Virus record (IMG/VR): IMGVR_UViG_3300050821_004354 | Span: 1 to 61,042 of that record | From: a virus | Direction: 5' to 3' (one strand) | DNA: 61,042 nucleotides | Part shown: piece by piece, positions 98 through 25,483 of the stretch | How positions within the stretch are numbered: position 1 is the first letter of the stretch | Layout of the letters: the number at the start of each line of letters is the position of its first letter | Translations under genes and position numbers: made by a program | The notes under the pieces: generated by a model | The model's input: the letters and a program-made list of their open reading frames with translations, nothing else | What the model was told of the DNA's origin: nothing | The model's database searches: none

Positions 98-166
98 GTG
101 CTTGCCGCGCGTATCTTTACCGTGCATCATCGTCCTACCACACTTCGGACAGTTCGGTCTCATCAT
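1..166 (-). CDS. 5' end of the A1-like phosphoesterase gene: N-terminal zinc ribbon (continues at 60945)
   Basis: This is the start of the gene that continues at 60945 after circular joining. The frame begins with ATG at 166-164, in an ATGA overlap with the stop of the upstream SNF2-like helicase. A GAGGAG ribosome site lies six bases before the ATG. The first 35 residues hold four cysteines spaced C6-x2-C9-x17-C27-x7-C35, a zinc-ribbon pattern. The frame stays open through the repeat into the phosphoesterase, giving 535 aa in total. A caller working on the linear contig would start at the GTG at 60982 and lose this zinc ribbon. Confidence 0.88.
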   Translation of the reverse strand, partial: MMRPNCPKCGRTMMHGKDTRGKHRWVCKTERGGYCYSTVGDPKVATKQDGSTVKK

Positions 167-1560
167 TGTCTGCTCCTCGCGCGGGCGCGCTTGAACGCCT
201 GCTCGACAGTTATCTTCCTAAAGTTGCTGTCGACGCAGTCGCCGTCCACAGTGCCCTTTGCTATCGCGTACCATACGCGCACCGCCGCCTTTTTGCAAGC
301 CTGTGCCTGCCGGGCCGGCCCGACCCGCTCAATCATCTGCGTCCATAGCTCCGCGTTCCAGGTGTAGCTGTAGTGCAGGATGTCGCGGCATGGCTCATGC
401 AAATTCAATCCAAACGCGCTCTGCTCCTGGAGTAGCATCACGCGGTACTTCCTGGCGTTCCAGTCGATCTCATCTTGCTTGCCGGCGTACAGACGTGCGG
501 GGATACCGCGTTTTTTGAGATGCTGCAGGATCCGAGATGGATCAGTTCGCCACCAGTAGCTAACCAATAGAGGCTCTGGTTCGATCTGGTCGAGCACATC
601 GTCGAGTGCCTCCAGGCGGCAATCGTGAATCGCGTGCGCCAGCTCAGTATCAGTGTCGATGATGCTTCCCGAGCAGATCTGCAGCAGCTTCGAAGACTTG
701 ATCGCAGCGGTGCCCGCCTCAATCTGCGCGTCATCGATCTCCAGAAAGAATTCTTTTTCCATGCGCTTATACTGCGCGCGGACAGCGGGTGGCAGCTCGA
801 ACTCAACAGCCAGCTCCTGCGGCTTCGTGATATCGAGCCAGTCTTCCGCTCTATATGCAACCAAAACATCCTTCACTGCCTCCTGTATCGACTCCGCCGC
901 GCCGCTCTGCAGGACAATCTTTCTTGTGTACCGATTCTCCATAAGGTACGCCTCGGAGAACGCGGTATAGCTCCTCTTCAAGCGCTCGCCGAAATCTATG
1001 AAGTACATCTGGCCCCAAAGATCCTGTAACCCATTCGGGACTGGCGTTCCAGTTAAGTTCCACCAGCGCCCGGTAAATTGTGCAATATCCGCGAGCGCGC
1101 TCGCTCTCACTGTCCCCTTGTTCAAGCGGAAGCCCTTCAGCCTCGAACACTCGTCCGCGATAACAATTCGGAACGGCCAGCGTTCTTGAGGCCACATCGT
1201 CACCAGCCACGGGACTAACTCGTAATTGATGACATAGATGTCCGCCGTTGGGCGCCGCAAAATCTCTAAGCGCTCTTGCAAGGAGCCCGTTATCTGCACT
1301 ACATTCAGATGTTGAAAGCTGGACCATTTATCTTTCTCCCCTGACCACACGACATCGGCTACGCGCTTTGGCGCGAGGATTAAGGCTGGGAAAAAAGACG
1401 ACCCCACCAACTTCAGCATATCGAGCGCCAGGAGTGACGTGCCCGTCTTCCCTAATCCCGGATCCGCCACAAGCATCGCCCGCTGGCGCTCGACTAGGAA
1501 CAGAGCCGCCTCCGATTGGTAGTCCCGTGGATTGAACTGAGGCAAGGAAATTATCGACAT
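163..1560 (-). CDS. SNF2-like superfamily 2 helicase
   Basis: A 465-aa DEAD/SNF2-type ATPase. Walker A is DPGLGKTG near residue 34, motif II is ADECS near residue 135, and motif III-like LTGTP lies near residue 170. The C-terminal half holds the second RecA lobe, including MIERVGPARQ, equivalent to motif VI. In phages this type sits next to a VRR-NUC nuclease and acts in replication, recombination or branch processing. The ATG start has a TGGAG site eight bases upstream. The stop overlaps the next gene's ATG as ATGA. The first 233 bases overlap the VRR-NUC reading frame. Confidence 0.88.
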   Translation of the reverse strand: MSIISLPQFNPRDYQSEAALFLVERQRAMLVADPGLGKTGTSLLALDMLKLVGSSFFPALILAPKRVADVVWSGEKDKWSSFQHLNVVQITGSLQERLEILRRPTADIYVINYELVPWLVTMWPQERWPFRIVIADECSRLKGFRLNKGTVRASALADIAQFTGRWWNLTGTPVPNGLQDLWGQMYFIDFGERLKRSYTAFSEAYLMENRYTRKIVLQSGAAESIQEAVKDVLVAYRAEDWLDITKPQELAVEFELPPAVRAQYKRMEKEFFLEIDDAQIEAGTAAIKSSKLLQICSGSIIDTDTELAHAIHDCRLEALDDVLDQIEPEPLLVSYWWRTDPSRILQHLKKRGIPARLYAGKQDEIDWNARKYRVMLLQEQSAFGLNLHEPCRDILHYSYTWNAELWTQMIERVGPARQAQACKKAAVRVWYAIAKGTVDGDCVDSNFRKITVEQAFKRARARSRQ

Positions 1561-1975
1561 CGGTTTTACTCCAGAGAACTTCGACTCTGTGCCCTAGCTT
1601 GCGAAGATCCTCGTGATAGCGTTCCTGCCACGACTTCACGCGCCCCAAAGATTCTCGCTTCATCTCCACGAAAATAACCGGCATCCCTGGAAGCAGTACC
1701 ATGCGGTCCGGCGCGCCGCGACGGCTTGGGTCTACGAACTTGGGGCACATGCCTCCGAGTCGTTGCACCTGCTCGTGAAGGTACTGTTCCGCTACAATCT
1801 CCTCGTCGCGCTGTGCTCTCAGTTTCTTTTGGTACACTCTACTATACTCCACATGCTTAGCGCGAAAAACTGGATCCTCGGCTCGCCGCTTACGCATCTG
1901 CGCTGCTTTCCGTGCGCGATGCCTTCGTAGCCGCTCCTCATTGGAGAGTTTTTTCTCCGTCGACCACGTCGTCAT
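1328..1975 (-). CDS. VRR-NUC domain nuclease
   Basis: A 215-aa protein with a basic N-terminus (about 70 residues, Arg/Lys-rich) followed by a VRR-NUC core: GAPDRM, then VEMKRE, the PD-(D/E)xK-like metal site, then LGHRVEVLW. VRR-NUC enzymes cut branched or flapped DNA. I chose the ATG at 1975 because AGGAGG lies seven bases upstream; a TTG further out would place that site inside the gene. The fold should end at about residue 145. The remaining residues run in a second frame across the start of the helicase gene and look like a tail without constraint. Confidence 0.85.
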   Translation of the reverse strand: MTTWSTEKKLSNEERLRRHRARKAAQMRKRRAEDPVFRAKHVEYSRVYQKKLRAQRDEEIVAEQYLHEQVQRLGGMCPKFVDPSRRGAPDRMVLLPGMPVIFVEMKRESLGRVKSWQERYHEDLRKLGHRVEVLWSKTDVDNFLASVQSTGLPIGGGSVPSRAPAGDACGGSGIREDGHVTPGARYAEVGGVVFFPSLNPRAKARSRCRVVRGER

Positions 1976-2237
1976 TTGCCGCCTCCTGTTTCGCAATCAC
2001 CGCGCCGTTGACGGGGCGCCCAAACACCTTGCTCGCCTGGATCCATGCCGTCGCCTCATCGCGGTCGATGAAGGTGGCGACCCACACGCGGCGGTCATTC
2101 ATGTCTTTCCCGTAGACCGGGTACATAGGGACCGAGGCGCCACCCATCGGCATCACCTGCGTCTCCGCCTGCAGCGTCTTCGAGAGTGCCATCGACATCT
2201 CCACCTCTTGCTTCAGTTCGTACTTTGTCTTTTCCAC
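1938..2237 (-). CDS. Hypothetical protein, 99 aa
   Basis: No family recognised. Start is GTG at 2237 with AGGAG seven bases upstream. The N-terminus is a charged helix, followed by a small alpha/beta-looking part (RVWVATFIDRDEATAWIQ). Its C-terminus overlaps the VRR-NUC start by 38 bases. The only neighbours are replication genes. Confidence 0.65.
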   Translation of the reverse strand: MEKTKYELKQEVEMSMALSKTLQAETQVMPMGGASVPMYPVYGKDMNDRRVWVATFIDRDEATAWIQASKVFGRPVNGAVIAKQEAANDDVVDGEKTLQ

Positions 2238-2352
2238 AATAGATCTCCTGCTGTGAGTAGGCCAGCGCCAGAACAAAGAGCGCGATGGCGAAGGTCAGGA
2301 TCTGCACGCATCCTAGAATGTGTTTTCGAAAATCGTCATCCTCGTCAGCCAC
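2095..2352 (-). CDS. Small single-pass membrane protein, overlapping
   Basis: An 85-aa frame starting at GTG 2352, just after the polymerase stop, with AGAGG in the stop region serving as ribosome site. Residues 1-8 are acidic, and residues 12-32 form one hydrophobic segment (ILTFAIALFVLALAY). Beyond about residue 45 it overlaps the next gene in another frame and becomes low-complexity Gly/Asp. The membrane N-terminus looks real; the tail may be only read-through sequence. Confidence 0.5.
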   Translation of the reverse strand: MADEDDDFRKHILGCVQILTFAIALFVLALAYSQQEIYCGKDKVRTEARGGDVDGTLEDAAGGDAGDADGWRLGPYVPGLRERHE

Positions 2353-2355
2353 GCG

Positions 2356-4578
2356 TCACCTCTTCCCGTAACGTGGGTGGGTCCACAGGTCCGCAGCAAC
2401 AGGAAGATCCCCCATCCACTGCTCTTTTTTCTTGAGCACCGCCAGGAACCGCGACTCGGGGTACGAGCCCCGGGGCACGTCGAGCCCGATCTCGTCGTGC
2501 ACATGTAGGCAGATAGCCGTCCGTGCGTACGGTTCCAAAGTCGCGAGGTACGCCGCTATCGCCGGCACCGTCAGCGTGTCGTCGTGCACGCGGAGCATCG
2601 CGGCCCTGAGTATATCGTTTGCAATCGCCTGCACAATGTTCTCGACGAAGAGCCCGGCCCAGGCGCGCTCGCGGCGCCAGCTACGGCCACGTACCGTGAG
2701 GTAGGAGACGTAGCGAGACTTCCAGGACCTCCCGCCGTCGACGTCTTCGATCAGCTCCTCTTTCAGGATCGGTGACGCGTAGAGGAGCCGGCGCCCGCTC
2801 GGCAGCTCGATCACCAGGAACGAGGCGTTGCACCAGATCGCGCAGCGCCCGACGTGGTAGACGGTACCGTTCTTGTCGGCGACAGCCTCCAGGATCGCGG
2901 TGTTGAGGTCGTACCGCATCTGATTGATCGCGGGGTTCGCGGTACGGTACGCCTGCTTCAGGATGTCGCACGACATATAGACATCGCGCTGAAGCTCGAA
3001 GTCCTCGCCCTTCAGGAACGCGCGGCGCCACGCCTTATCCGCCTTCTCCAGCTGATCGGCGGTAGCGGTCGGGAGCACGAACGCCGCCAGCGGCTCCAGG
3101 TCCATCTGATACGCAATCGCCATGTTGACGAGCGCCGCCACGCCGCCGCCGAAACCGAACGCGAGGATGCAGACCTTGCCCATCTGCCGCTCGGCCTCGT
3201 TCACTTCCTCAGGGCGCTTGCCTAGCATCTTCCCGGCGATGATGCGGTACGGATCCTTCGACTTGTCTTTGGGGTTATCGAACAGGTCGCGGAACGCGTT
3301 GAGCACCGACGTCTCTCCGGCGACCCATGCCGTGATCACGGTCTCGATGTTCTTGAAGTCAGCGACGACCAGCTCGTTGCCCTGCGCGGCGATGATCCCG
3401 TGACGGACCGCGATGGCGACCGCCTCGAACGGACCCCCGTAGACTAGTGGATTGTTGAGGGCCTCGCCGCTATAGATGCCTGGTATGATGACATCGTCGA
3501 TAGTGCTCGCCTTAACCGGCTCCAGCTCGATTCGTCCGGCTCGCGGGTGTCCTGGAGGCCGCCGGACTGTGATAGACGGGCGAGCCATGTTATGTGGCTG
3601 GTACCCCCTAGCCGCGTGACGACCTGTACGGCCCGCACCCGACCAACGGCACCAGTGGCGGATGCGGCTCTCGGGCCCAACCAGCGCAAGTCCCCGCTTG
3701 AACTTAGTACCAGCACTCTTTCCAGCTTCGAGCCGCTCTTCGAGAACAGTTCGAAGAACTGGGTCCAGGTCGTCACTTTCGAGGTAGTCACGTACGTCTC
3801 CTGCGCGAAGCGATTCGATGTCTATGTCGTAGCGGTTACGGATGTAGGCCAGCAGCCGCTTCGCTTGCGTTGCTGAGCCGATCTGGTCCTCGGTGTTCGC
3901 GCGCATCACCTTCCGCGACGCCTCGCGCGCCCGGTCGAGGAAGTCTGAGGCCGCCTGCGCGAGCTGCACGTCGAACCCGAACCCGCGCTCGTTCACGAGC
4001 TGGTCCAGCATCCAGTTGCGGAGGTTGACGCCAGCGTAGTTCACCTGCGGCATCCGGTTGAAGGCGGTCCGCAGCGCCTCGGTGTCACGGATCGCATAGT
4101 TGCAGAAGCGCGCCCACTCGGCCGGCGCGTCCTTCGGCTCGATGAACTGCCCGGTCGCGGGCTGTATGCAGCAGAAGGTGTCGATCAGCTTCTTGTCGTC
4201 GACCAGCTTCCCCTCGTCCTCGTTGAGTCCGCACACCTTCCCGAGACCCTCAAGCGATCCGGGGAGACCGTGCGCGCTCGCGCCGGCCATCGTGCAGCGC
4301 CAGCGCGAGACCGGCGTCACCAGCTTAAGCGAGCGAGCGAGTACGAGCCGGTCGAAGGCGGCATTGTGCGCGATGATAATGAACTCAGGATCCATCAGCG
4401 CGTCGTAGAGATCTCGCGGGATCACCCCGCTCTGGAAGGGGAGGTAGATCTTTGCCTCGCCGGTAACGAACGCGTAGGTCACGATCCGGCACTCGGCCGC
4501 CCGCGTGTAGCGGTCCGTCCCGACGTTGATGTCGAGACGGGACCGCGTCTCTGTATCCAGGAAGAGAATCTTCAGCAC
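2356..4578 (-). CDS. Family A DNA polymerase with 3'-5' exonuclease
   Basis: A 740-aa replicative polymerase. The exonuclease has FLDTET near residue 8 (Exo I), AHNAAFD (Exo II) and YAIRD (Exo III). The polymerase has GRTGR, motif A with ADFKNIE, the O helix R-x3-K-x3-L-x3-FG, and motif C with HVHDE. In the O helix the position equivalent to E. coli Phe762 is Leu, and that of Tyr766 is Phe. The GTG start at 4578 overlaps the preceding small gene's TGA. A further GTG at 4662 exists but would add a non-homologous leader. Part of the DUF2800/DUF2815/Pol/VRR-NUC/SNF2 cassette. Confidence 0.93.
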   Translation of the reverse strand: MLKILFLDTETRSRLDINVGTDRYTRAAECRIVTYAFVTGEAKIYLPFQSGVIPRDLYDALMDPEFIIIAHNAAFDRLVLARSLKLVTPVSRWRCTMAGASAHGLPGSLEGLGKVCGLNEDEGKLVDDKKLIDTFCCIQPATGQFIEPKDAPAEWARFCNYAIRDTEALRTAFNRMPQVNYAGVNLRNWMLDQLVNERGFGFDVQLAQAASDFLDRAREASRKVMRANTEDQIGSATQAKRLLAYIRNRYDIDIESLRAGDVRDYLESDDLDPVLRTVLEERLEAGKSAGTKFKRGLALVGPESRIRHWCRWSGAGRTGRHAARGYQPHNMARPSITVRRPPGHPRAGRIELEPVKASTIDDVIIPGIYSGEALNNPLVYGGPFEAVAIAVRHGIIAAQGNELVVADFKNIETVITAWVAGETSVLNAFRDLFDNPKDKSKDPYRIIAGKMLGKRPEEVNEAERQMGKVCILAFGFGGGVAALVNMAIAYQMDLEPLAAFVLPTATADQLEKADKAWRRAFLKGEDFELQRDVYMSCDILKQAYRTANPAINQMRYDLNTAILEAVADKNGTVYHVGRCAIWCNASFLVIELPSGRRLLYASPILKEELIEDVDGGRSWKSRYVSYLTVRGRSWRRERAWAGLFVENIVQAIANDILRAAMLRVHDDTLTVPAIAAYLATLEPYARTAICLHVHDEIGLDVPRGSYPESRFLAVLKKKEQWMGDLPVAADLWTHPRYGKR

Positions 4579-4676
4579 TGGCGATACTGCCAATCGCGAT
4601 ACGCTGCGGCGGGTGTCACACCGAAGCCAGGGGTCTGCGGGCGATGATCTCGCCAGAGGCACACCCAGGCCTCCAC
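4572..4676 (-). CDS. Small phage protein, about 34 aa (start uncertain)
   Basis: A short frame ending seven bases inside the polymerase start. The body (TPGFGVTPAAAYRDWQ) resembles small tryptophan-rich phage proteins with a TPGFG..P..AY.DW pattern. GTG at 4676 is the nearest start after the previous gene's stop; an in-frame ATG at 4796 would give 74 aa but overlaps the neighbour by 110 bases. Function unknown. Confidence 0.5.
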   Translation of the reverse strand: MEAWVCLWRDHRPQTPGFGVTPAAAYRDWQYRQC

Positions 4677-4686
4677 GCCGACCAGC

Positions 4687-5016
4687 TTACGGATTACCGG
4701 CTTCGTCTGTCTCGCCTGCGATAACCGGCGACGGTTGTAGTACGGACCCCGGAACAGTGGGAGAGACAGTCGGGTTGGCGAGTTGGGCATATTCATTGAG
4801 CACCTGCTGGAACATTCGGTTCTTGGCGAGCATACCTTGTCGAGATTTTCGTATCTGCTCCATCCGGTCGAGGAGCACGTAGAGCCCCCGCTCCGCGAAG
4901 AAGCGGCGCATGTTCTTGCGCTGCGTGCGGAGGTAGCGCGCGATCAGTCGGTTGACGATGGCGCCGACAGGCTGGTAGCCCATGCTCGCGAACGGAGTCT
5001 TTTGTTGATCGCTCAC
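4687..5016 (-). CDS. Hypothetical protein, 109 aa
   Basis: Starts at GTG 5016 in a GTGA overlap with the upstream stop. The N-terminal two thirds are helical and basic (RYLRTQRKNMRRFFAERG), followed by a Pro/Thr/Ser-rich tail. No family recognised. Frame extensions upstream of the GTG are shadows of the next gene. Confidence 0.65.
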   Translation of the reverse strand: MSDQQKTPFASMGYQPVGAIVNRLIARYLRTQRKNMRRFFAERGLYVLLDRMEQIRKSRQGMLAKNRMFQQVLNEYAQLANPTVSPTVPGSVLQPSPVIAGETDEAGNP

Positions 5017-5216
5017 AGCTTCACCTCTTCGTACGCGACGCGCCAGACGCGGATCTTCGGGTTCTTCAGGTTCGGGAAATCCTTCAGGTACTCGCGCCAC
5101 TCTTTGCGCACCTGCGCCTTGGTGGTTGCCCTGGCCCACGAGTGACGGTCCAGGCTCGGCACGCCCGTGGCGTGTGGGTCGCTGGTGTCTTCCCATTCGT
5201 ATAACATGATCGTCAT
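5013..5216 (-). CDS. Hypothetical protein, 67 aa
   Basis: ATG at 5216 lies in an ATGA overlap with the upstream stop, with GGAG eight bases before it. The protein is charged and tryptophan-containing (WREYLKDFPNLKNPKIRVWRV). No family recognised. Confidence 0.65.
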   Translation of the reverse strand: MTIMLYEWEDTSDPHATGVPSLDRHSWARATTKAQVRKEWREYLKDFPNLKNPKIRVWRVAYEEVKL

Positions 5217-5398
5217 TTCAGTAGCTCCATAATTTCTTTGTCGAGCTGCTTCGCTCTCGCCTCCAGCACCGCGTCGATCACGCGGTGCGCGAAGTCAGCT
5301 AAAAGTGGGGCCTCTGCATGCGACTCCGACTCGAACGGAGAGGCTTCGGGAGCGTTCTCCCCCTGCCCGCCACACCCGTGACTCGGCCCCAACACCAT
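5213..5398 (-). CDS. Hypothetical protein, 61 aa
   Basis: Starts with ATG directly after the stop of the ssDNA-binding protein gene (TAATG). The first 30 residues are Gly/Pro/Glu-rich; the last 30 form a helix (HRVIDAVLEARAKQLDKEIMELL). No family recognised. Confidence 0.6.
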   Translation of the reverse strand: MVLGPSHGCGGQGENAPEASPFESESHAEAPLLADFAHRVIDAVLEARAKQLDKEIMELLK

Positions 5399-6069
5399 TA
5401 GATCAGCCCAGCGCCGCCGGTTGACGGAGCCACGGCGCCTGCCGGGGCTGAGTCAGCGTCTTGCGGGACCAACCCAAACTCGCTACCGCTCGCGACCGAG
5501 CTGCCGCGGAGCCGCTCACCGTGCTTGAAGAACTGCACGCCGAGGACGCTGCACCCGAGACCGGGCGAGTTGCCGTACAGGTACGTGTAGAACTCAAGGA
5601 GCACGTTCGCGTAGCTCCCCTCGTAGGGCCAGCACGGGTGGCTCGGGGTCAGGATCACGGGCGTGTTCCTGTTCGAGATGTTCACTCCGTTCTCAGTCAC
5701 CAGGATCGTGGGCTGGTCCTTGTTGCCGGCGCTCACGTAGAGCATCCCAGCGTAGGCCGGCTTCCCCGGACGGTACTGGTCACCGCGCTGGAGCGGGAAC
5801 CGCTGGTTGTTGCCCTTGATCATGTCGAGGGTCTGCTGCGTCTGCTCCTTCCACTTCGACGTCGCGACGTCGCGGATGAGCTGCTGCAGCGCCGGGAACT
5901 GCGGGTGATTCATCGGGAACACCGCATCGATATGGAACTTCCCGTCCGCCTTGCCCGTCGTCGGGTCGATCTTCGCGTCGCGCCCGACGTATGGCTTCGT
6001 CAGCGACACGCGCAACAGCCGCACGTTCTCCAACTTGATTTGCTTATTTACAGTAACTTCGCCTGACAT
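5398..6069 (-). CDS. ssDNA-binding protein, DUF2815/Enc34 type
   Basis: A 223-aa protein matching the DUF2815 family, whose Enc34 phage member is a single-stranded DNA-binding protein with an OB-like fold. Typical features are the N-terminal LLRVSLTKPYVGRD, KADGKFHIDAVFP and the late GSYANVLLEFY. The C-terminus is Ala/Pro/Gly-rich, as in tails that recruit partners, but it ends in GAGLI rather than an acidic tip. It lies between the DUF2800 nuclease-like protein and the polymerase. Confidence 0.85.
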   Translation of the reverse strand: MSGEVTVNKQIKLENVRLLRVSLTKPYVGRDAKIDPTTGKADGKFHIDAVFPMNHPQFPALQQLIRDVATSKWKEQTQQTLDMIKGNNQRFPLQRGDQYRPGKPAYAGMLYVSAGNKDQPTILVTENGVNISNRNTPVILTPSHPCWPYEGSYANVLLEFYTYLYGNSPGLGCSVLGVQFFKHGERLRGSSVASGSEFGLVPQDADSAPAGAVAPSTGGAGLI

Positions 6070-6084
6070 TTTCGTCTCCTAACT

Positions 6085-7281
6085 TTAGATCAGTCCCGGC
6101 TCTTGCGTCGGGATAAACTGGATCGGCGTCACCGCCTCTCCCTTGTGGTCCAGCGGCACGAGCCGTAGCTGCGGCTCCGACTGTGTCACCAGGTCTTTCA
6201 GGACTACGTAGTCCTTCTTCAAAATCTTCTCAGCCGTCGTCGGGCTGATGATCTCGCGCGGCTCGTACATCTTCTCGGGCAAGACCACCATCGACAGCGC
6301 GGTCTCGGCCTTCTGCGGATCCACCCACTTGCGTGGGCCGTGGTTCCCGTAGATCAGCTTCTGGCCCGGCAAGATCACGCCCAGCTTCGCGCGGCGCAGC
6401 GCTTCGGCACGGAAGTCTGTGATCGCGGCCTCGATCTCGTCGAGCTGCGCGTAGACAACGCCAAGCGAGCGATCATCCAGCTCGTGACGCTTCACGAGCG
6501 GCTCGAACATGCTCATGATGCGCTTCGCGCGGGCGACGCAGCGGCCCCGGACCGGGCAGTAGGTGCACTGCTCGTCGCCTGCCACCAGGTGCTGCTGCGG
6601 GTCGAAGGGTACCGTCTCGTGGTAGATGTCGTAGGCGAGCTTCGCGACGGGGCGGATCAGCGCCATGAAGGTCTCCAGCTCGGCGCGGGTGTAGGTCCAC
6701 TCGTCGTAGTGGTTCAGCTTCGGCTGGTGGATGCAGAACCGGAACGCGTTGAAGTCGCCTACCAGGCTGAACTCGATCATCGCGGCGCAGAGGTATATCA
6801 GCCCCTGCGTGTTATCCTTCGCGTTTACGAGCAGGTACCCGTCCTTGTAGTCGTGGACAGATAGGACGCCCTTGTATACGGTTTCTCGGATGACGGCGCC
6901 ACCCTCGGGGTAGAGCTTGATGATGTCGCTGTGCCCCTCCTGGTCCGGGACACCGAGCACGGGCGTCGTGTCGAGACGGTGCTCGACCAGCATCTCGCCC
7001 GGCTCGCGGTTGATCACGCGCACGCACGAGCGTACGCGCTCCAGCCGCTCCTCATCGATCTTGAACTTGAACTCACCAAACTGCAGCTCTTTCCCAACGA
7101 AGATGTCGAGGTCGTGTTGCGGGTTCTCCAGCTGCCACTGCAGGAGCCAGTGAGAACATGTCCCGCTCGCGCTGTGCTCCTTGTCCGGGTCCGGGACCCC
7201 GCGCGACAGATAGAGCGCGCCAACGCAGCGGAGCCAGCGGGAGGAGCCGGAGGGTGCGAGGATTGAGTGTGTGCCGCTCAT
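6085..7281 (-). CDS. DUF2800 protein, RecB/Cas4-like nuclease family
   Basis: A 398-aa protein with the hallmark N-terminus HSILAPSGSSRWLRC of DUF2800, a PD-(D/E)xK family related to RecB/Cas4 exonucleases. Core acidic/lysine elements are near VHDYKDG (about residue 140). A CTYCPVRGRC cluster near residue 245 probably forms, with an early Cys, an iron-sulfur site. It likely trims DNA ends in replication or recombination alongside the ssDNA-binding protein. Confidence 0.85.
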   Translation of the reverse strand: MSGTHSILAPSGSSRWLRCVGALYLSRGVPDPDKEHSASGTCSHWLLQWQLENPQHDLDIFVGKELQFGEFKFKIDEERLERVRSCVRVINREPGEMLVEHRLDTTPVLGVPDQEGHSDIIKLYPEGGAVIRETVYKGVLSVHDYKDGYLLVNAKDNTQGLIYLCAAMIEFSLVGDFNAFRFCIHQPKLNHYDEWTYTRAELETFMALIRPVAKLAYDIYHETVPFDPQQHLVAGDEQCTYCPVRGRCVARAKRIMSMFEPLVKRHELDDRSLGVVYAQLDEIEAAITDFRAEALRRAKLGVILPGQKLIYGNHGPRKWVDPQKAETALSMVVLPEKMYEPREIISPTTAEKILKKDYVVLKDLVTQSEPQLRLVPLDHKGEAVTPIQFIPTQEPGLI

Positions 7282-7568
7282 TCCAGATCCTTGTGTTCGT
7301 AGCCACGCAGGAGCATCTCGAACGCTTCGTGCGGCTTCAGCTTATAGTGCCGGTACACCTTGTAGTGGTGCCCCTCGATATGGAACTCCATCAGCTCATA
7401 GTGGTCAGCGCGCGTTTGGATCTCTATGGGTGCGCGCATGTAGTAGTCGGGTGAGTACGCTAACGGGTGCCTCTTCGTCATCGACCACATCTTGGGTAGT
7501 GAGCTGCCCGGTAACCGTTCGACGTGGTGCCACTCACCGTCATGCAAACCGCCAATGAAGAGGCTCAT
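7278..7568 (-). CDS. Hypothetical protein, 96 aa
   Basis: Starts at ATG 7568 in an ATGA overlap with the preceding stop; its own stop overlaps the DUF2800 start. Rich in His and Tyr (HIEGHHYKVYRHYKL). The N-terminus (SLFIGGLHDGEWHHV) resembles small phage proteins with a GG..DG.....V pattern. Function unknown. Confidence 0.65.
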   Translation of the reverse strand: MSLFIGGLHDGEWHHVERLPGSSLPKMWSMTKRHPLAYSPDYYMRAPIEIQTRADHYELMEFHIEGHHYKVYRHYKLKPHEAFEMLLRGYEHKDLE

Positions 7569-7984
7569 TTCTTTGCGATCTCCCGTTTCAGGTCGGTCAG
7601 CGCCTGCTGCACAGTGCGCGGCGGCTGGTAGTTGTACAGCGGCGCGACGAGCCGGAGCGCGGTGTGCATCAGCAGACGCGCGCCGAAGTTCCGGTCGCTG
7701 ACGTGCCGCTGCATCTTGAACTCGGCGACGTGCGCGAGCAGCTCCTCGTAGTAGCGGAACTCTGAGTCTACCAGGTAGTGCTCCCACCAGAAGGTGGGAT
7801 CCATGCCCGGCATCTTTTGCCGGTCGAGGTGCACGTTCTCGTGCGCGATCAGCGCGGGCGGCACCACGCCGCCGCTCGGATTGTAGATGTTGCCGTCGTA
7901 GGCGAAGAGCACGCCGGGTAGCTCGGCCTTGGGGAAGGCGGCCTTCACCAGCTCAAAGTTCGGCGGTCGTTCATTGATGATCAT
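7565..7984 (-). CDS. HExxH-motif protein, possible zinc metallopeptidase
   Basis: A 139-aa protein with H48-E49-N50-V51-H52, the HExxH zinc-peptidase motif, inside a predicted helix. About 25 residues later comes an acidic/aromatic segment (YEELLAHVAEFK) that could supply a third ligand. ATG 7984 has AGGAG nine bases upstream. It is short for a peptidase, so a minimal zinc-dependent peptidase or an inactive zinc protein is possible. No named family assigned. Confidence 0.6.
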   Translation of the reverse strand: MIINERPPNFELVKAAFPKAELPGVLFAYDGNIYNPSGGVVPPALIAHENVHLDRQKMPGMDPTFWWEHYLVDSEFRYYEELLAHVAEFKMQRHVSDRNFGARLLMHTALRLVAPLYNYQPPRTVQQALTDLKREIAKK

Positions 7985-8075
7985 AGCTTCAGCTCCTGCC
8001 AGAGCCACGGGCGCGGCGGTGTTTTTAATGCCAGCTTTTTCTGCTCTGGCCCGCGGCGCCCGTGGTTGGGTGCAC
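7985..8075 (-). repeat. Intergenic spacer with long inverted repeat
   Basis: Between the HExxH gene and the 140-aa gene lie inverted arms CCACGGGCGC (8005-8014) and GCGCCCGTGG (8056-8065), ten perfect pairs, with a T-run between them. A transcript could fold into a stem about 60 bases long. No T tract follows the stem on the minus strand, so it is not an obvious terminator. Confidence 0.55.
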
Positions 8076-8498
8076 TCAGACCAGGGAAGCCTGCGCGACC
8101 TGCACAGCTGCAGCGTCGATCTTCGCCACCTCTTCCTCGAACAGGTCGAACGCCGCCTGATACAGCTCCTGCGGGAGCGTGACGGTGTTCTTGTGCCCGA
8201 GCTTGGCGAGGATCGCCTCGGCAACGTTCCGGTCCTTCGCCGCCACCTTAAGCACGAGCGCGTTAAGCTGTGCCTTGGTGACGGTGGGAGCGGCCGGTGC
8301 CGCCGCAGCGACCACAGGCGCGGTAGCCAAGGGCGCTGAGGCTGGGCTCGCGGCCGGTGCCGTTGCAGCTACCGCAGGCGAAGGGTCCGCCGATGCCTTC
8401 CCTTTCCCCTTTCCCTTCGACGGTACTACCTCGTCGATAGCGCCCTCGAAGGCTTCGGCGAGCGCGTGGAGCGCAGCCGCAATCTTTGCGTGATTCAT
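8076..8498 (-). CDS. Hypothetical protein with Ala/Pro linker, 140 aa
   Basis: ATG 8498 has GAGGAG upstream. An N-terminal helix (1-25) is followed by a Lys-Gly run (KGKGKGK), a 40-residue Ala/Pro/Val-rich linker, and a C-terminal helical domain (80-140). The bipartite shape with a flexible linker suggests an adaptor, possibly nucleic-acid-associated through the Lys run. No family recognised. Confidence 0.65.
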   Translation of the reverse strand: MNHAKIAAALHALAEAFEGAIDEVVPSKGKGKGKASADPSPAVAATAPAASPASAPLATAPVVAAAAPAAPTVTKAQLNALVLKVAAKDRNVAEAILAKLGHKNTVTLPQELYQAAFDLFEEEVAKIDAAAVQVAQASLV

Positions 8499-8529
8499 CG
8501 TTTCGATCTCCTCGGTTGGTTGTCAAAAA

Positions 8530-8769
8530 TCAGTTGTGTCTGGCGCAGTTGGTGCCGACGGGCTGAGCCAGCGTGCAAGTACAGCGCGGACCGGTGACTG
8601 CGAAACGGTACCGCTGCCTATCGTCATATCGCCACGGCTTCCATGACCAGTCGCCCGTCGATACCTGGGCCAGGTACCCTCGGATGCCGGGCGCTCCGTC
8701 ACCATCCTCACACTCCGTAGGTGTGTACGCCCGCGCGTTACCGACTGTAAATAATCTATGCTCGATCAT
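8530..8769 (-). CDS. Hypothetical protein, 79 aa
   Basis: ATG 8769 has GGGAG eight bases upstream and follows a near-consensus promoter. Cys residues near the end (CTCTLAQPVGTNC) may bind metal. The middle is aromatic and charged. No family recognised. Confidence 0.6.
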   Translation of the reverse strand: MIEHRLFTVGNARAYTPTECEDGDGAPGIRGYLAQVSTGDWSWKPWRYDDRQRYRFAVTGPRCTCTLAQPVGTNCARHN

Positions 8770-13961: not shown

Positions 13962-14299
13962 TATGCTGCTCCCTTCGGCTTGTTCGCGTTCATGTGCACG
14001 AGACGCTTCGCGTGCTCCTCGGTCTCCAGCTCGTTCAGCGCCTGCGCCTTCAGGATGATGGAGGCGATCTGCGCCTGGATCGGCTCAGGTAGCGTGCGTA
14101 GCTCCGGCATCTGCATCAGCTCGCGGAGCCCGGTCCAGAGGTGCTTCGACATCCGGGCCTGGACCGCGTGCGCGTTTAAGAGCGCGAGCAGGTCAGTGGT
14201 CCCGTTACCCACCCACGCGAGCCGTATGTCGTGCCGGCCAGCCTGCAGCTGGATGAGCCGAGACAACGCGTCGCCTGCACTGTTTGTGATATCAGCCAT
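13961..14299 (-). CDS. Hypothetical protein, 112 aa
   Basis: Helical throughout; the start overlaps the end of the primase-helicase gene by eight bases. Residues 15-60 contain QAGRHDIRLAWVGNGTTDLLALLNAH. No family recognised. Confidence 0.6.
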   Translation of the reverse strand: MADITNSAGDALSRLIQLQAGRHDIRLAWVGNGTTDLLALLNAHAVQARMSKHLWTGLRELMQMPELRTLPEPIQAQIASIILKAQALNELETEEHAKRLVHMNANKPKGAA

Positions 14300-16466
14300 T
14301 TGTCAGGTCTCCGTTCGTTCGCTGCAGTTTCCATCTCACGCCGAACTTGTTGTGCCCGTCGTGCACCAGCTTGTAGCCGGCACCGATCTTATCTTTCGAG
14401 GCACGTAGCCAGTACCCAACCTTGATCGGGTTATTTGGCTCCGCGCACCCCATCTGCATCAGCATGTCGCTCAGCTCGTTGTTAGTATCCGAGAGGCTCC
14501 CCACGACGCGCGCCATGTCGCCGGCCGTGAAGGGTCGGTCCCCAAAGTTAGCCGCCAGCTTCTCGAATATCGGGCCGACGTTCTTTGTCTCATCGTCTGT
14601 CTCATTCAGCTGCGTGACGACAGGGTCAGCCATCCCCAGCCAGATGAGTGGGTTCCGCGCGAGCTGGGACCAGCGCTCGAAGCTTGGTAGCTCGACCGGC
14701 ATCCCGCTGCCCTGGTCGCTGACGTACGTCCTGATGATATACGCCTTGATGATGGTGAGCGCGTCGACCAGCAGCTGTGCCCGGTGCTGCATGATATAGC
14801 GGCGCGGGTTAACGATCTTGAAGACCCTCTCGCGGAGGTTCTCCGTGTTCGCGTCGAGCCGGATCACTAGGCTCCGCCGCGCGAGCGCGCCGACCGGGGT
14901 CAGGTTGTTACCCGACGCCACCAGCACCGCCTTGTTGGCGATGCCGGTGGTGACGCTCTCCCCTAGCTTCCGATCCTTCCAGACCGCGCTCGTCAGGAAC
15001 GCTTCGAGCACCGACGAACGGACCTTGATACCGTCCGGGAGGTTGTCGAACCATATCGAGCGGTCCCCGGCCATCAGGCACGCGTAGATGGACTTACGTA
15101 GCTCGTCCTCATCCGCCACCCAGGGCCGCATCGCGGGCTCGGTCCCGTGCACGATCCGCGCCGCCATCTCTTGCAGCGTACTCTTGCCGGTGCCAGCCAT
15201 CGGCGCGTCGTAGAAGTACATCGGGCAACGCTCCATCGCGAGCCGCGCCGCCTCGGCGAGGATATGCGACACGAACGCCGCCTCCGACGCCTCCTCCTTC
15301 CATGGGAACTCGTTGAATGGCTCTCGGAGCCGCGCCAGCGCCGCCAGCGCGTCCTCACGCGTCGGCCGCTCAGGGATCGGCGGGAACTCGATGCTCGGGA
15401 CGTAGAGGGTCCGACTCACCGAGTCGTATCCGGCCACGTCGCAGATGCTACCGTCGTCGCGGAGGAACGGCGCACGCGCGATAGCGTCGAGCGGGCGGAG
15501 CGTGTTCCAGCTCCCCAGCCCGAGCATGTTGTTGATGTGCTCTGCGCTCGGTGCGACCATAACCCACTCCTCTTTCGTTGATAGATACTTCTGGAAATCG
15601 CACAGCTGCCCGAACCGCTTACGCGCCCACTCTTTGGTGGCGGGGATCAGCATCAGCGCGTCGCTGTTGCGCTGGATGGCGCCGTCGTTGTGCGCCTCGG
15701 TCGTCCGTACCAGCGACGATCCCTGCGTGTATACGTGCGGGTTCAGTACCTCCTCCAGCTCGTCCAGGATCCCGGAGAAGTTTGCGTCGACGAGACGGAT
15801 CAGCCTACGTCTGGCCGGCGCTACACCAACAGCGGGCGGTATCACGTCGACCAGGTCGATGTTCGGCGCCGGGTCAGGTACCGGCTCGAAGGCGCTGACG
15901 TCCGCCACCTTCAGCATCCCCCGCTGGCGCGCCATGTTGAAGATGTGCCGGTAGTCGGTGCGCGGCGCCTGGTCGCGGTGCGTGTCCCACCACCTCTCCG
16001 CGGCGCCGGGCTCGAACCCTGCCGCCTTACTACTGAAGTCGATCCACAGCTGATGTGCCGGCCGCTTACCCTGCAGCGAGAGGAGTGCGTAACCCACCTC
16101 ACTCCATGTGTCATTGTCCGAGACCTTGTCCAGGAGGAAGCGCAGGCACGCGAGCAGGTGCTGCCAGTCGTCCTCGCTGATCACCCTCATCACCTCCGGG
16201 CTCGTCTCCGTTGTCGGAGTTGCTGCCGTTGCAGTCGGGCTCGTAGTCGTCGGCGAAGTTTTCGCATACGTTTGAGTAAGCGTCGTCCACAGCTGGTCCA
16301 CTGCCGCTTGGGTCAGCGCCGGGATCGAAAGCGGTAGCCCGCCCTCCCATTGGTAGCGCGTGCCGCTGCTGTGAGTGCCCGCCGCTACGAACTGTTGCCC
16401 ATCGCCAAGAAGCTCTACCGCCGGCCCGCGCGGGTTCTCGTCCAACTTCAGTTTGCGTTTCTTCAT
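14292..16466 (-). CDS. PrimPol-helicase, C-terminal part (split gene)
   Basis: A 724-aa protein. The first residues (ELLGDGQQFVAAGTH) are the third catalytic segment of an archaeo-eukaryotic-type primase-polymerase; the first part is encoded at 17029-17460. A PriCT-like segment follows (SEVGYALLSL, FNMARQRG), then a helicase ATPase with Walker A APMAGTGKS near residue 420, IWFDN as Walker B, and ASGNN as sensor 1. The ATG at 16466 sits in an ATGA overlap with the HNH gene's stop, with GGAG six bases upstream. It probably primes and unwinds during replication together with its other half. Confidence 0.85.
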   Translation of the reverse strand: MKKRKLKLDENPRGPAVELLGDGQQFVAAGTHSSGTRYQWEGGLPLSIPALTQAAVDQLWTTLTQTYAKTSPTTTSPTATAATPTTETSPEVMRVISEDDWQHLLACLRFLLDKVSDNDTWSEVGYALLSLQGKRPAHQLWIDFSSKAAGFEPGAAERWWDTHRDQAPRTDYRHIFNMARQRGMLKVADVSAFEPVPDPAPNIDLVDVIPPAVGVAPARRRLIRLVDANFSGILDELEEVLNPHVYTQGSSLVRTTEAHNDGAIQRNSDALMLIPATKEWARKRFGQLCDFQKYLSTKEEWVMVAPSAEHINNMLGLGSWNTLRPLDAIARAPFLRDDGSICDVAGYDSVSRTLYVPSIEFPPIPERPTREDALAALARLREPFNEFPWKEEASEAAFVSHILAEAARLAMERCPMYFYDAPMAGTGKSTLQEMAARIVHGTEPAMRPWVADEDELRKSIYACLMAGDRSIWFDNLPDGIKVRSSVLEAFLTSAVWKDRKLGESVTTGIANKAVLVASGNNLTPVGALARRSLVIRLDANTENLRERVFKIVNPRRYIMQHRAQLLVDALTIIKAYIIRTYVSDQGSGMPVELPSFERWSQLARNPLIWLGMADPVVTQLNETDDETKNVGPIFEKLAANFGDRPFTAGDMARVVGSLSDTNNELSDMLMQMGCAEPNNPIKVGYWLRASKDKIGAGYKLVHDGHNKFGVRWKLQRTNGDLTNG

Positions 16467-17029
16467 ATGAGACTCCATAGGCGTGCGTCGTCAGCCAGAC
16501 GCTGAAACACATCAGGGTCAATGCAGTTGCTCTTAATCGTGTTTGCGTGGTTCGATATAACTCTGACGTTGCCACGGACATACCCTAGATGTGGTTTAAT
16601 TCTATCCAAACTTGGTGACTGCGGGTGTACCTTACGGTTTTTAGGACCCCAGTGAAACGGCAACAAGGTAAACGGACATTGTTCAGGGATCTGGACATCT
16701 TCTGCGCGCAAATCGAATTGAATGCCCAACCTTTTGCATCTGGATTTTGCCGCGTATATAACGCGAGCGACCCAAGTGTCAGGGTCATTGTTGAACAAGA
16801 CTCGTCGCGCGACTACCCGTTCTCGGTTGGCTGCGTGCCAAGCGCGCTGCAGCTCAAGCCTTCTCGCTCGTGTGGTCGCCCGATATGCGCGTTCTTTCTC
16901 TCGCGCTGCTTCTAAATTTGCGGCGCGCCGAAGAGAGTTACGCTTACTAACTACATCTTTATGCGTAGCATAGTATCTCCGTTGCGCCTCTCTATTGGAT
17001 GCGCGCTTAGCTTCTAGTGTGAGAGTCAT
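16463..17029 (-). CDS. HNH homing-type endonuclease splitting the PrimPol gene
   Basis: A 188-aa protein: N-terminal half is a basic coiled region with repeated RRYY/REKER elements; the C-terminal HNH core has CPFTLLPF, SLDRIKP, GYVRGNVRVISNHAN and a final helix. Its start (ATG 17029) shares a base with the upstream TGA and its stop overlaps the downstream ATG, so the insertion consists of coding sequence only. GGAGGA lies before the start. No intron or intein sequence is visible. Likely a mobile endonuclease that inserted into the PrimPol gene. Confidence 0.88.
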   Translation of the reverse strand: MTLTLEAKRASNREAQRRYYATHKDVVSKRNSLRRAANLEAAREKERAYRATTRARRLELQRAWHAANRERVVARRVLFNNDPDTWVARVIYAAKSRCKRLGIQFDLRAEDVQIPEQCPFTLLPFHWGPKNRKVHPQSPSLDRIKPHLGYVRGNVRVISNHANTIKSNCIDPDVFQRLADDARLWSLI

Positions 17030-17460
17030 CACTCCTCCAACCTGAACAACAGTAAGCACTTGCCGCTGTTCTCGCGATATCGCTTCGGCAGTTCCATACC
17101 GAGTTGTTGCTCGATCAACGTGACGATCTCTTCGGCTTTTGCGCGATTCTCCACGTCGATGTCAAACGCGTAGATGCCGCTGATCGGGCCGGTCCGTACG
17201 CACATGTTGAGGCGCGGATCCGTACTCCACTCGCGGATCTCTGTCGGCATGATGTCGCGCTTCTGCCAGGCTAATAGCCCGTGCGCCTCGCCGCGCGCGC
17301 TGAACATGCTCGGGATCTTGCCGACCTTGCCGGCGAGCGCGCTACCCTCCAGCACCTTGACGCCGGGCGATGCCGGCACGCAGGGGAGCAGGTTCGCGCC
17401 GAGACCTAACACGAAGTCGAAGTGACTCCATTCTTCCTGAGATGCGCCGAGTGGGCTCAT
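17029..17460 (-). CDS. PrimPol N-terminal part (split gene)
   Basis: A 143-aa protein holding the first half of a bifunctional primase-polymerase domain. It has an N-terminal GANLLPC...PGVKV segment, WSTDPRLNMCVRTG, then AFDIDV (the DxD metal site), and it ends in SGKCLLLFRLEE, where uninterrupted homologues continue toward the third motif. ATG 17460 forms TAATG with the lipoprotein gene stop and has GGAG upstream. The active site is thus divided between this protein and the one at 14292-16466. Confidence 0.8.
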   Translation of the reverse strand: MSPLGASQEEWSHFDFVLGLGANLLPCVPASPGVKVLEGSALAGKVGKIPSMFSARGEAHGLLAWQKRDIMPTEIREWSTDPRLNMCVRTGPISGIYAFDIDVENRAKAEEIVTLIEQQLGMELPKRYRENSGKCLLLFRLEE

Positions 17461-17621
17461 TAAAAACTCCATGTCACAGTAAGCGGGTACCGGTGATCGC
17501 AGCGTAGGTGCTGCGGTCGCTCGTTGATTGATCTGTCACACACCAGCTGCAGCTGGCCGTGCGGTATCGCTACCACACAGCCGACCAGCATGGTCGACGC
17601 GGTGACGATAGCGAGCCTCAT
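17460..17621 (-). CDS. Small lipoprotein, 53 aa
   Basis: Starts MRLAIVTASTMLVGC: a short signal peptide with lipobox LVGC, so the mature protein would be about 39 residues beginning at Cys15. Two more Cys (28, 41) could form a disulfide. It overlaps the preceding 28-aa membrane protein by four bases and the PrimPol start by one. The pairing of a tiny inner-membrane protein with a lipoprotein recalls spanins, but it is far from the lysozyme and lacks a coiled coil. Confidence 0.65.
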   Translation of the reverse strand: MRLAIVTASTMLVGCVVAIPHGQLQLVCDRSINERPQHLRCDHRYPLTVTWSF

Positions 17622-25127: not shown

Positions 25128-25417
25128 GCATCATCTTCGGGTGCCCCCACTACTACGCCGCGAACGATCAGCGGTGCCAGCTGCACCGCGGCCACGCCGG
25201 CCCGCACGACTTCGCGCTGCGTGAAAATACTCAGCGCGCTGAGCAAAGGTACTGGCGCTGCGCGCACCACCCGAGCGCGATTGAAAATTTTTTCGACGGG
25301 CGCAAGGAGTGCCAGTGGGAGTGCCACAAGCAGGAGCTGCACTGGTACCACAACGGGACGCACCCGATGCCGAAGAGCTGGGGCTCACCGTTCCCTCGAT
25401 TTAAAATTGGCGCGTAG
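25124..25417 (+). CDS. Cys/His zinc-binding-like protein, 97 aa
   Basis: I chose ATG 25124 (ATGA overlap); the longer frame is a shadow. N-terminus has CPHYYA, RCQLHRGHAGPHDF, a Cys/His pattern seen in small phage zinc proteins; CAHH and CQWECH follow. The TAG stop lies ten bases inside the tRNA-Asn gene. Confidence 0.6.
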   Translation: MSIIFGCPHYYAANDQRCQLHRGHAGPHDFALRENTQRAEQRYWRCAHHPSAIENFFDGRKECQWECHKQELHWYHNGTHPMPKSWGSPFPRFKIGA

Positions 25418-25483
25418 CTCAGTCGGCAGAGCAGCGCACTGTTAATGCGCGGGTCGTAGGTTCGAGTCCTACCGTGCCAGCCA
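25408..25483 (+). tRNA. tRNA-Asn (anticodon GTT)
   Basis: 76 bases with encoded CCA. The acceptor stem TGGCGCG pairs with CGTGCCA (one G-U), discriminator G. The D arm has TAGCTCAGTCGG, the anticodon loop is CTGTTAA with GTT at 25441-25443, and the T arm has GGTTCGAGTCC. The first ten bases overlap the stop region of the preceding gene. Confidence 0.95.

Follow-up and report, generated by a model that had tools for sequence, protein, structure and literature searches.

An HNH-like endonuclease gene between the two parts of a phage primase-polymerase, and other occupants of the same site in related phages

Genes in pieces that result from free-standing homing endonucleases include Aeh1 nrdA, T4 gene 60/39, and phage 25 gene 43 (PMC2988022). 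Aeh1 nrdA is split by the HNH homing endonuclease gene mobE, and the two halves together are fully active (PMC2988022, Friedrich 2007). The other two encode replication enzymes and are divided by a homing endonuclease gene or lie beside one: mobA for the T4 topoisomerase gene 60/39 and a seg-like gene for phage 25 gene 43, where the order of events is unclear according to the review (PMC2988022). In T4, mobE lies between nrdA and nrdB, and its ATG overlaps the upstream stop codon by one nucleotide (UAAUGA), which has been read as translational coupling (PMC2988022). Among the Endonuclease VII-type homing endonucleases, F-CphI is free-standing (PMC6083498). Enzymes of the AEP superfamily are defined by three motifs in a fixed order, motif I (DhD), motif II (sxH, with Arg or Lys in one family), and motif III (hE/D), and metal binding requires the Glu of motif III as well as the Asp residues of motif I (PMC5862659). 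No primase-polymerase (PrimPol) split by a nuclease gene was found in the literature covered, which included few of the subscription papers, and this is not proof of priority.

The window analyzed here is the whole of a virus record, IMG/VR IMGVR_UViG_3300050821_004354, with a length of 61,042 bases. Three genes on its minus strand lie end to end at 17029-17460, 16463-17029, and 14292-16466. The first encodes the N-half of a PrimPol with AEP motifs I and II (143 aa), the second an HNH-like endonuclease (188 aa), and the third the C-half of the PrimPol with motif III, PriCT-2, and a helicase region (724 aa). In Pfam, the N-half matches Prim-Pol (E 3.4e-6, covering positions 16-103 of the 158 in the profile), and in PHROG it matches the primase family phrog_1156 at positions 17-125. 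The C-half matches the same PHROG profile at positions 134-322; thus the halves cover successive stretches of a single profile. The C-half also matches PriCT_2 (E 2.1e-6) and phrog_29234 (E 7e-70). The N-half is 62-77% identical to those of seven intact relatives and of one split relative (L005), and the identity of the C-half to the relatives is about 75%. The ORF caller's first ATG is at 17472, and the start homologous to those of the relatives (MSPLGA.../MSLGA...) is at 17460. The initial annotation, which was made from the sequence of the window, had placed an HNH gene between two PrimPol parts at 16463-17460; the profile matches to Pfam and PHROG agree with this, and the relatives confirm the start at 17460.

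The overlaps of one and four bases that had been reported for the two joins are present in the sequence. At the left join (17029-17031, minus strand), TGATG combines the stop codon of the N-half (TGA, 17031-17029) with the ATG of the nuclease gene (17029-17027). At the right join (16463-16466, minus strand), ATGA combines the ATG of the C-half (16466-16464) with the stop codon of the nuclease gene (TGA, 16465-16463), and this ATGA is identical in two related contigs, L005 and L021. The left join resembles that of T4 mobE, except that mobE is an intergenic insertion and splits no gene. A ribosome-site-like GGAGG (17034-17038, minus strand) lies four bases upstream of the nuclease ATG and consists of the host gene's own Glu-Glu codons; it is also present in several relatives with an empty site (e.g., L002, L003, L006, L007). 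A second such sequence, GGAG (16473-16476, minus strand), lies within the nuclease gene, six bases before the ATG of the C-half. Since GGAGG and GGAG precede the two downstream ATGs, the N-half, the nuclease, and the C-half could all be initiated.

The initial annotation had asked for an uninterrupted relative to be aligned at the join, and such relatives fit exactly. The residues FRLEE* / MKKRKLKLD of the window align with FRMEEPCKKRKIKLD of the uninterrupted relatives, among which L002 reads FRMEEPCKKRKIKLDDNPRGPAIELLADGQQFVACG. Because of this exact alignment, the insertion swaps just the residues equivalent to Pro-Cys for a stop and a start. That no intron is left, as had also been claimed, agrees with an Rfam scan of the whole window, in which no group I or group II intron was matched and only a tRNA was found. 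Reading of the sequence revealed no intron or intein sequence at the locus beyond the overlapping genes, and neither a ribozyme core nor intein splicing blocks were present in the insert by Rfam scan and sequence.

The catalytic motifs are spread over the two halves. Motif I (D-I-D, 17155-17163, minus strand), which provides metal ligands, and the nucleotide-binding motif II (S-G-K with Lys in place of His, 17059-17067, minus strand) are on the N-half, and the Glu of motif III (A-V-E, 16413-16415, minus strand), the third metal ligand, is on the C-half. The corresponding D, D, S-x-K, and E are kept in 42 relatives: in L002 numbering, D99, D101, and E160 are invariant, and S130 and K132 are at least 90% conserved. 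With the motifs divided in this way, a single active site would require both chains. The structural position of the cut was taken from an AlphaFold model of the intact domain of the relative L002, not of the window's halves, built with 42 sequences (pLDDT 95.7, pTM 0.90); a model of full-length L002 from six sequences, with a pLDDT of 37, was left aside. Sequence searches of the PDB with the PrimPol and with the nuclease gave no meaningful relatives, and a Foldseek search with the L002 model gave PrimPols as its best PDB matches. The closest were those of pRN1 (1rni, E 1.2e-6) and phage NrS-1 (6a9w, E 7.8e-5), at 12-14% identity. Thus pRN1 ORF904 and NrS-1 have the AEP fold and the three catalytic motifs in common with the family of the window, but they are single uninterrupted chains. 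In the model, the cut corresponds to L002 residues 141|144, in a loop between predicted strands 133-139 and 146-149, which places it in the turn of a beta-hairpin, with motif II before it and motif III after it. The earlier view that the insertion parts the active site is therefore supported by the motifs and by the fold of the intact-domain model.

The inserted nuclease has a basic, repeat-rich N-terminus and a C-terminal SPSLDRI...GYVRGNVRVIS..AN..K domain. It matches the endonuclease family phrog_3322 (E 8.7e-27) and phrog_1035 (E 2.8e-16), and it has no Pfam, NCBIfam, or PDB profile match. The conserved positions of its family are CP...SPS[LV]D[RK]...GYV.GNV...IS..AN..K, and the canonical catalytic His of the classical HNH and Endonuclease VII motifs is not visible at the expected place (SPSLDR). 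The name HNH is therefore appropriate at the level of the PHROG family, but neither Pfam nor NCBIfam nor the residue pattern supports it, and we assume that the protein is an active nuclease. The gene is of foreign composition, with a GC3 of 0.49 compared with 0.79-0.83 in the flanking halves. A single-protein search gave no close relatives, and a profile search of viral contigs gave more than 500. These relatives occur in many unrelated phages, and those inspected are free-standing genes; five with overlapping neighbors were inspected, and the neighbors did not look like halves of one gene. The family is thus very common in viral contigs, yet it has no Pfam or NCBIfam model match and no visible catalytic His. 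There is also a weak relative (26%) at 12061-12345 of L008, elsewhere in a phage with an intact PrimPol.

A search of viral contigs gave a related set of 13 phage contigs. Eleven of them are uninterrupted at the join, and the other two (L005 and L021) have their split at the same codons as the window. The occupant in L005 is of the same nuclease family as that of the window; it is shorter, 66% identical over 110 residues, and has ATGA overlaps on both sides. L021, which is about 50% identical over most of its length, has an unrelated occupant, an Endonuclease VII-type gene (Pfam PF02945, E 2.3e-15) at 2172-2591 within the split PrimPol gene at 1747-4837, again with ATGA at both ends. Like F-CphI, this occupant is of the Endonuclease VII type, whereas the nuclease of the window has no DHDH motif and no Pfam match. 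L007, one of the eleven, is intact at this join but carries a third nuclease, an HNH-type gene with overlapping ends, at another site; this gene is inserted at 6503-6985 in PriCT-2 (PrimPol gene at 5557-8648). None of 66 more distant PrimPol loci has a stop at this point. A pattern for the start of a split C-half recovered only the known L005 and L021, and a search of genome contigs gave no prophage relatives. With 11 of the 13 sites empty, two split at the same codons, and the distant loci continuous, the split is optional and has recurred, and it is due neither to chance nor to faulty assembly.

For the pair formed by the window and L005, the dN/dS values are 0.18 (N-half) and 0.18-0.25 (C-half), similar to intact pairs. 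Since these values of about 0.2 are like those of intact pairs, neither half appears to be decaying. Ten residues are common to the window, L005, L021, and at most one other member, and all fall in the stretch of the alignment from -51 to +54 columns relative to the cut. Of these ten, eight are within 50 columns, which ranks first among 180 comparable triples (the next best has three). A tree of the flanks unites the three split genes (97/95), whereas the helicase tree rejects this group (AU p 5.6e-6) and places L021 instead with L016, L017, and L027 (100/100). With the flank data, L021 together with these three relatives of its own clade is not rejected (p 0.32), and L021 with L016 alone is rejected (p 0.014). 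At the upstream-flank residues shared by the window and L021, the same codon is used in only 7 of 34, compared with 148 of 326 elsewhere. Because so few codons are identical, the shared flank does not reflect a recent DNA transfer; either the exchange dates far back or some of the likeness is convergent. Base composition did not mark a clear foreign tract in the flanks of the window's gene or of L005. The differences between L007 and its sister L008 are concentrated around the L007 insertion, where identity is 32-46% in several blocks, compared with 84-100% in most other parts of the gene. The tree conflict, the clustered shared residues, and the pattern of L007 and L008 together are as would be expected if homing had left co-converted flanks.

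Most probably, insertion of a homing-type nuclease gene made a two-chain PrimPol, and it may have carried its flanks along. In a phage PrimPol-helicase gene, a free-standing homing-type endonuclease gene would have entered at the hairpin turn that separates motif II from motif III. Readability would have been kept because the nuclease start overlaps the stop of the N-half and the nuclease stop overlaps the new ATG of the C-half, so that one message could give three proteins through translational coupling. The two halves would then reassociate, probably re-forming the strand pair LLLFRLEE / KKRKLKLD, to make one working primase-polymerase. The nuclease would spread through cleavage of alleles that lack it; its own allele would be safe because the site is interrupted, and repair would carry nearby flanking codons along with the nuclease gene. 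We infer the assembly of the halves into one active site, the priming activity, and the cleavage of empty sites; the conservation of both halves supports the first of these. More tentatively, with the balance slightly against it, an obligate two-chain primase with its own flank haplotype may circulate among these phages, with the hairpin turn as a recurrent split point at which unrelated nucleases (HNH-like and Endonuclease VII-like) are interchangeable at the same codons, and with a third nuclease at another site.

The shared flank residues could also reflect independent insertions into the same turn, followed by convergent adaptation to a two-chain enzyme instead of co-conversion. The different nuclease families at the same codons and the low codon identity between the window and L021 would fit such a history. 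However, the diagnostic residues reach about 50 codons from the cut and include a helix motif, K.EEIV, away from the join, and L007 also shows a locally replaced stretch around its own insertion. We therefore consider convergence unlikely, though it has the best claim among the alternatives. It is improbable that the split abolished priming, leaving the C-half only as a helicase and the N-half as a decaying remnant. The PrimPol could be dispensable if a host primase serves the phage, but the N-half is open and constrained at the dN/dS given above, and the window, L005, and L021 have all retained the residues of motifs I, II, and III. A search of the window gave no DnaG-type primase, but it also missed the known Prim-Pol half and is therefore weak.

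Restoration of a single chain by a group I or II intron, an intein or split intein, or ribosome bypassing of the nuclease gene would be very surprising here. Phage replication genes commonly contain introns and inteins that carry HNH genes (PMC7344957). At this locus, however, no intron model is matched, and the insert is coding throughout with overlapping ends, so there is no room for a ribozyme or intein sequence. In addition, the nuclease and the C-half each have their own start and a ribosome-site-like sequence, and the overlapping layout recurs in L005 and L021. So-called fractured genes with split inteins are on record, reportedly from Dassa in 2009. Bypassing would have to cover about 565 bases, which to our knowledge would far exceed the known cases. 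An assembly chimera or a sequencing error is the least credible explanation and hardly needs to be entertained: the window does come from a collection of contigs, as a virus record, but the same architecture with diverged sequence is found in two other contigs, and the stop and start overlaps at both joins are precise.

Under the preferred reading of a homing-type insertion, the locus is like Aeh1 nrdA with mobE in that an essential gene is divided, within a functionally critical region, by a nuclease gene with no working intron or intein, so that two chains are encoded. Here, however, the host gene is that of a PrimPol-helicase, in which the cut falls between the motifs with the metal ligands, and the nuclease is of the phrog_3322 type. 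Unlike at nrdA, the occupants of the site differ among the relatives, and the joint activity of the window's two halves is a prediction. T4 gene 60/39 and phage 25 gene 43 are other enzymes. A coding-only insertion of this precision had been called unusual; the joins are indeed precise, but these three known genes temper the claim. Nuclease-split phage genes are already known, and what differs here is the PrimPol as the host gene and the unrelated nucleases at the same codons in related phages.

A primase-polymerase would thus join the few enzymes known to have been divided naturally by a nuclease gene; its cut lies in a hairpin turn that separates catalytic motifs. The empty alleles, the two occupants of one site, and the second site form a compact natural series, which could be useful for studying how split enzymes survive, how flanks travel with homing genes, and whether nuclease cassettes replace one another where the split point is fixed. 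For biochemistry, the two halves might serve as a split polymerase provided by nature.

Other replication-type genes are encoded on one strand in the stretch 163-8224 of the window, the same strand as the PrimPol genes: a SNF2-type helicase (163-1560), a family A DNA polymerase (2356-4662), a Gp2.5/Enc34-like ssDNA-binding protein (5398-6069), and a PD-(D/E)XK exonuclease (6085-7281). The tRNA gene found by the Rfam scan (68 bits) is located at 25408-25480 on the plus strand.
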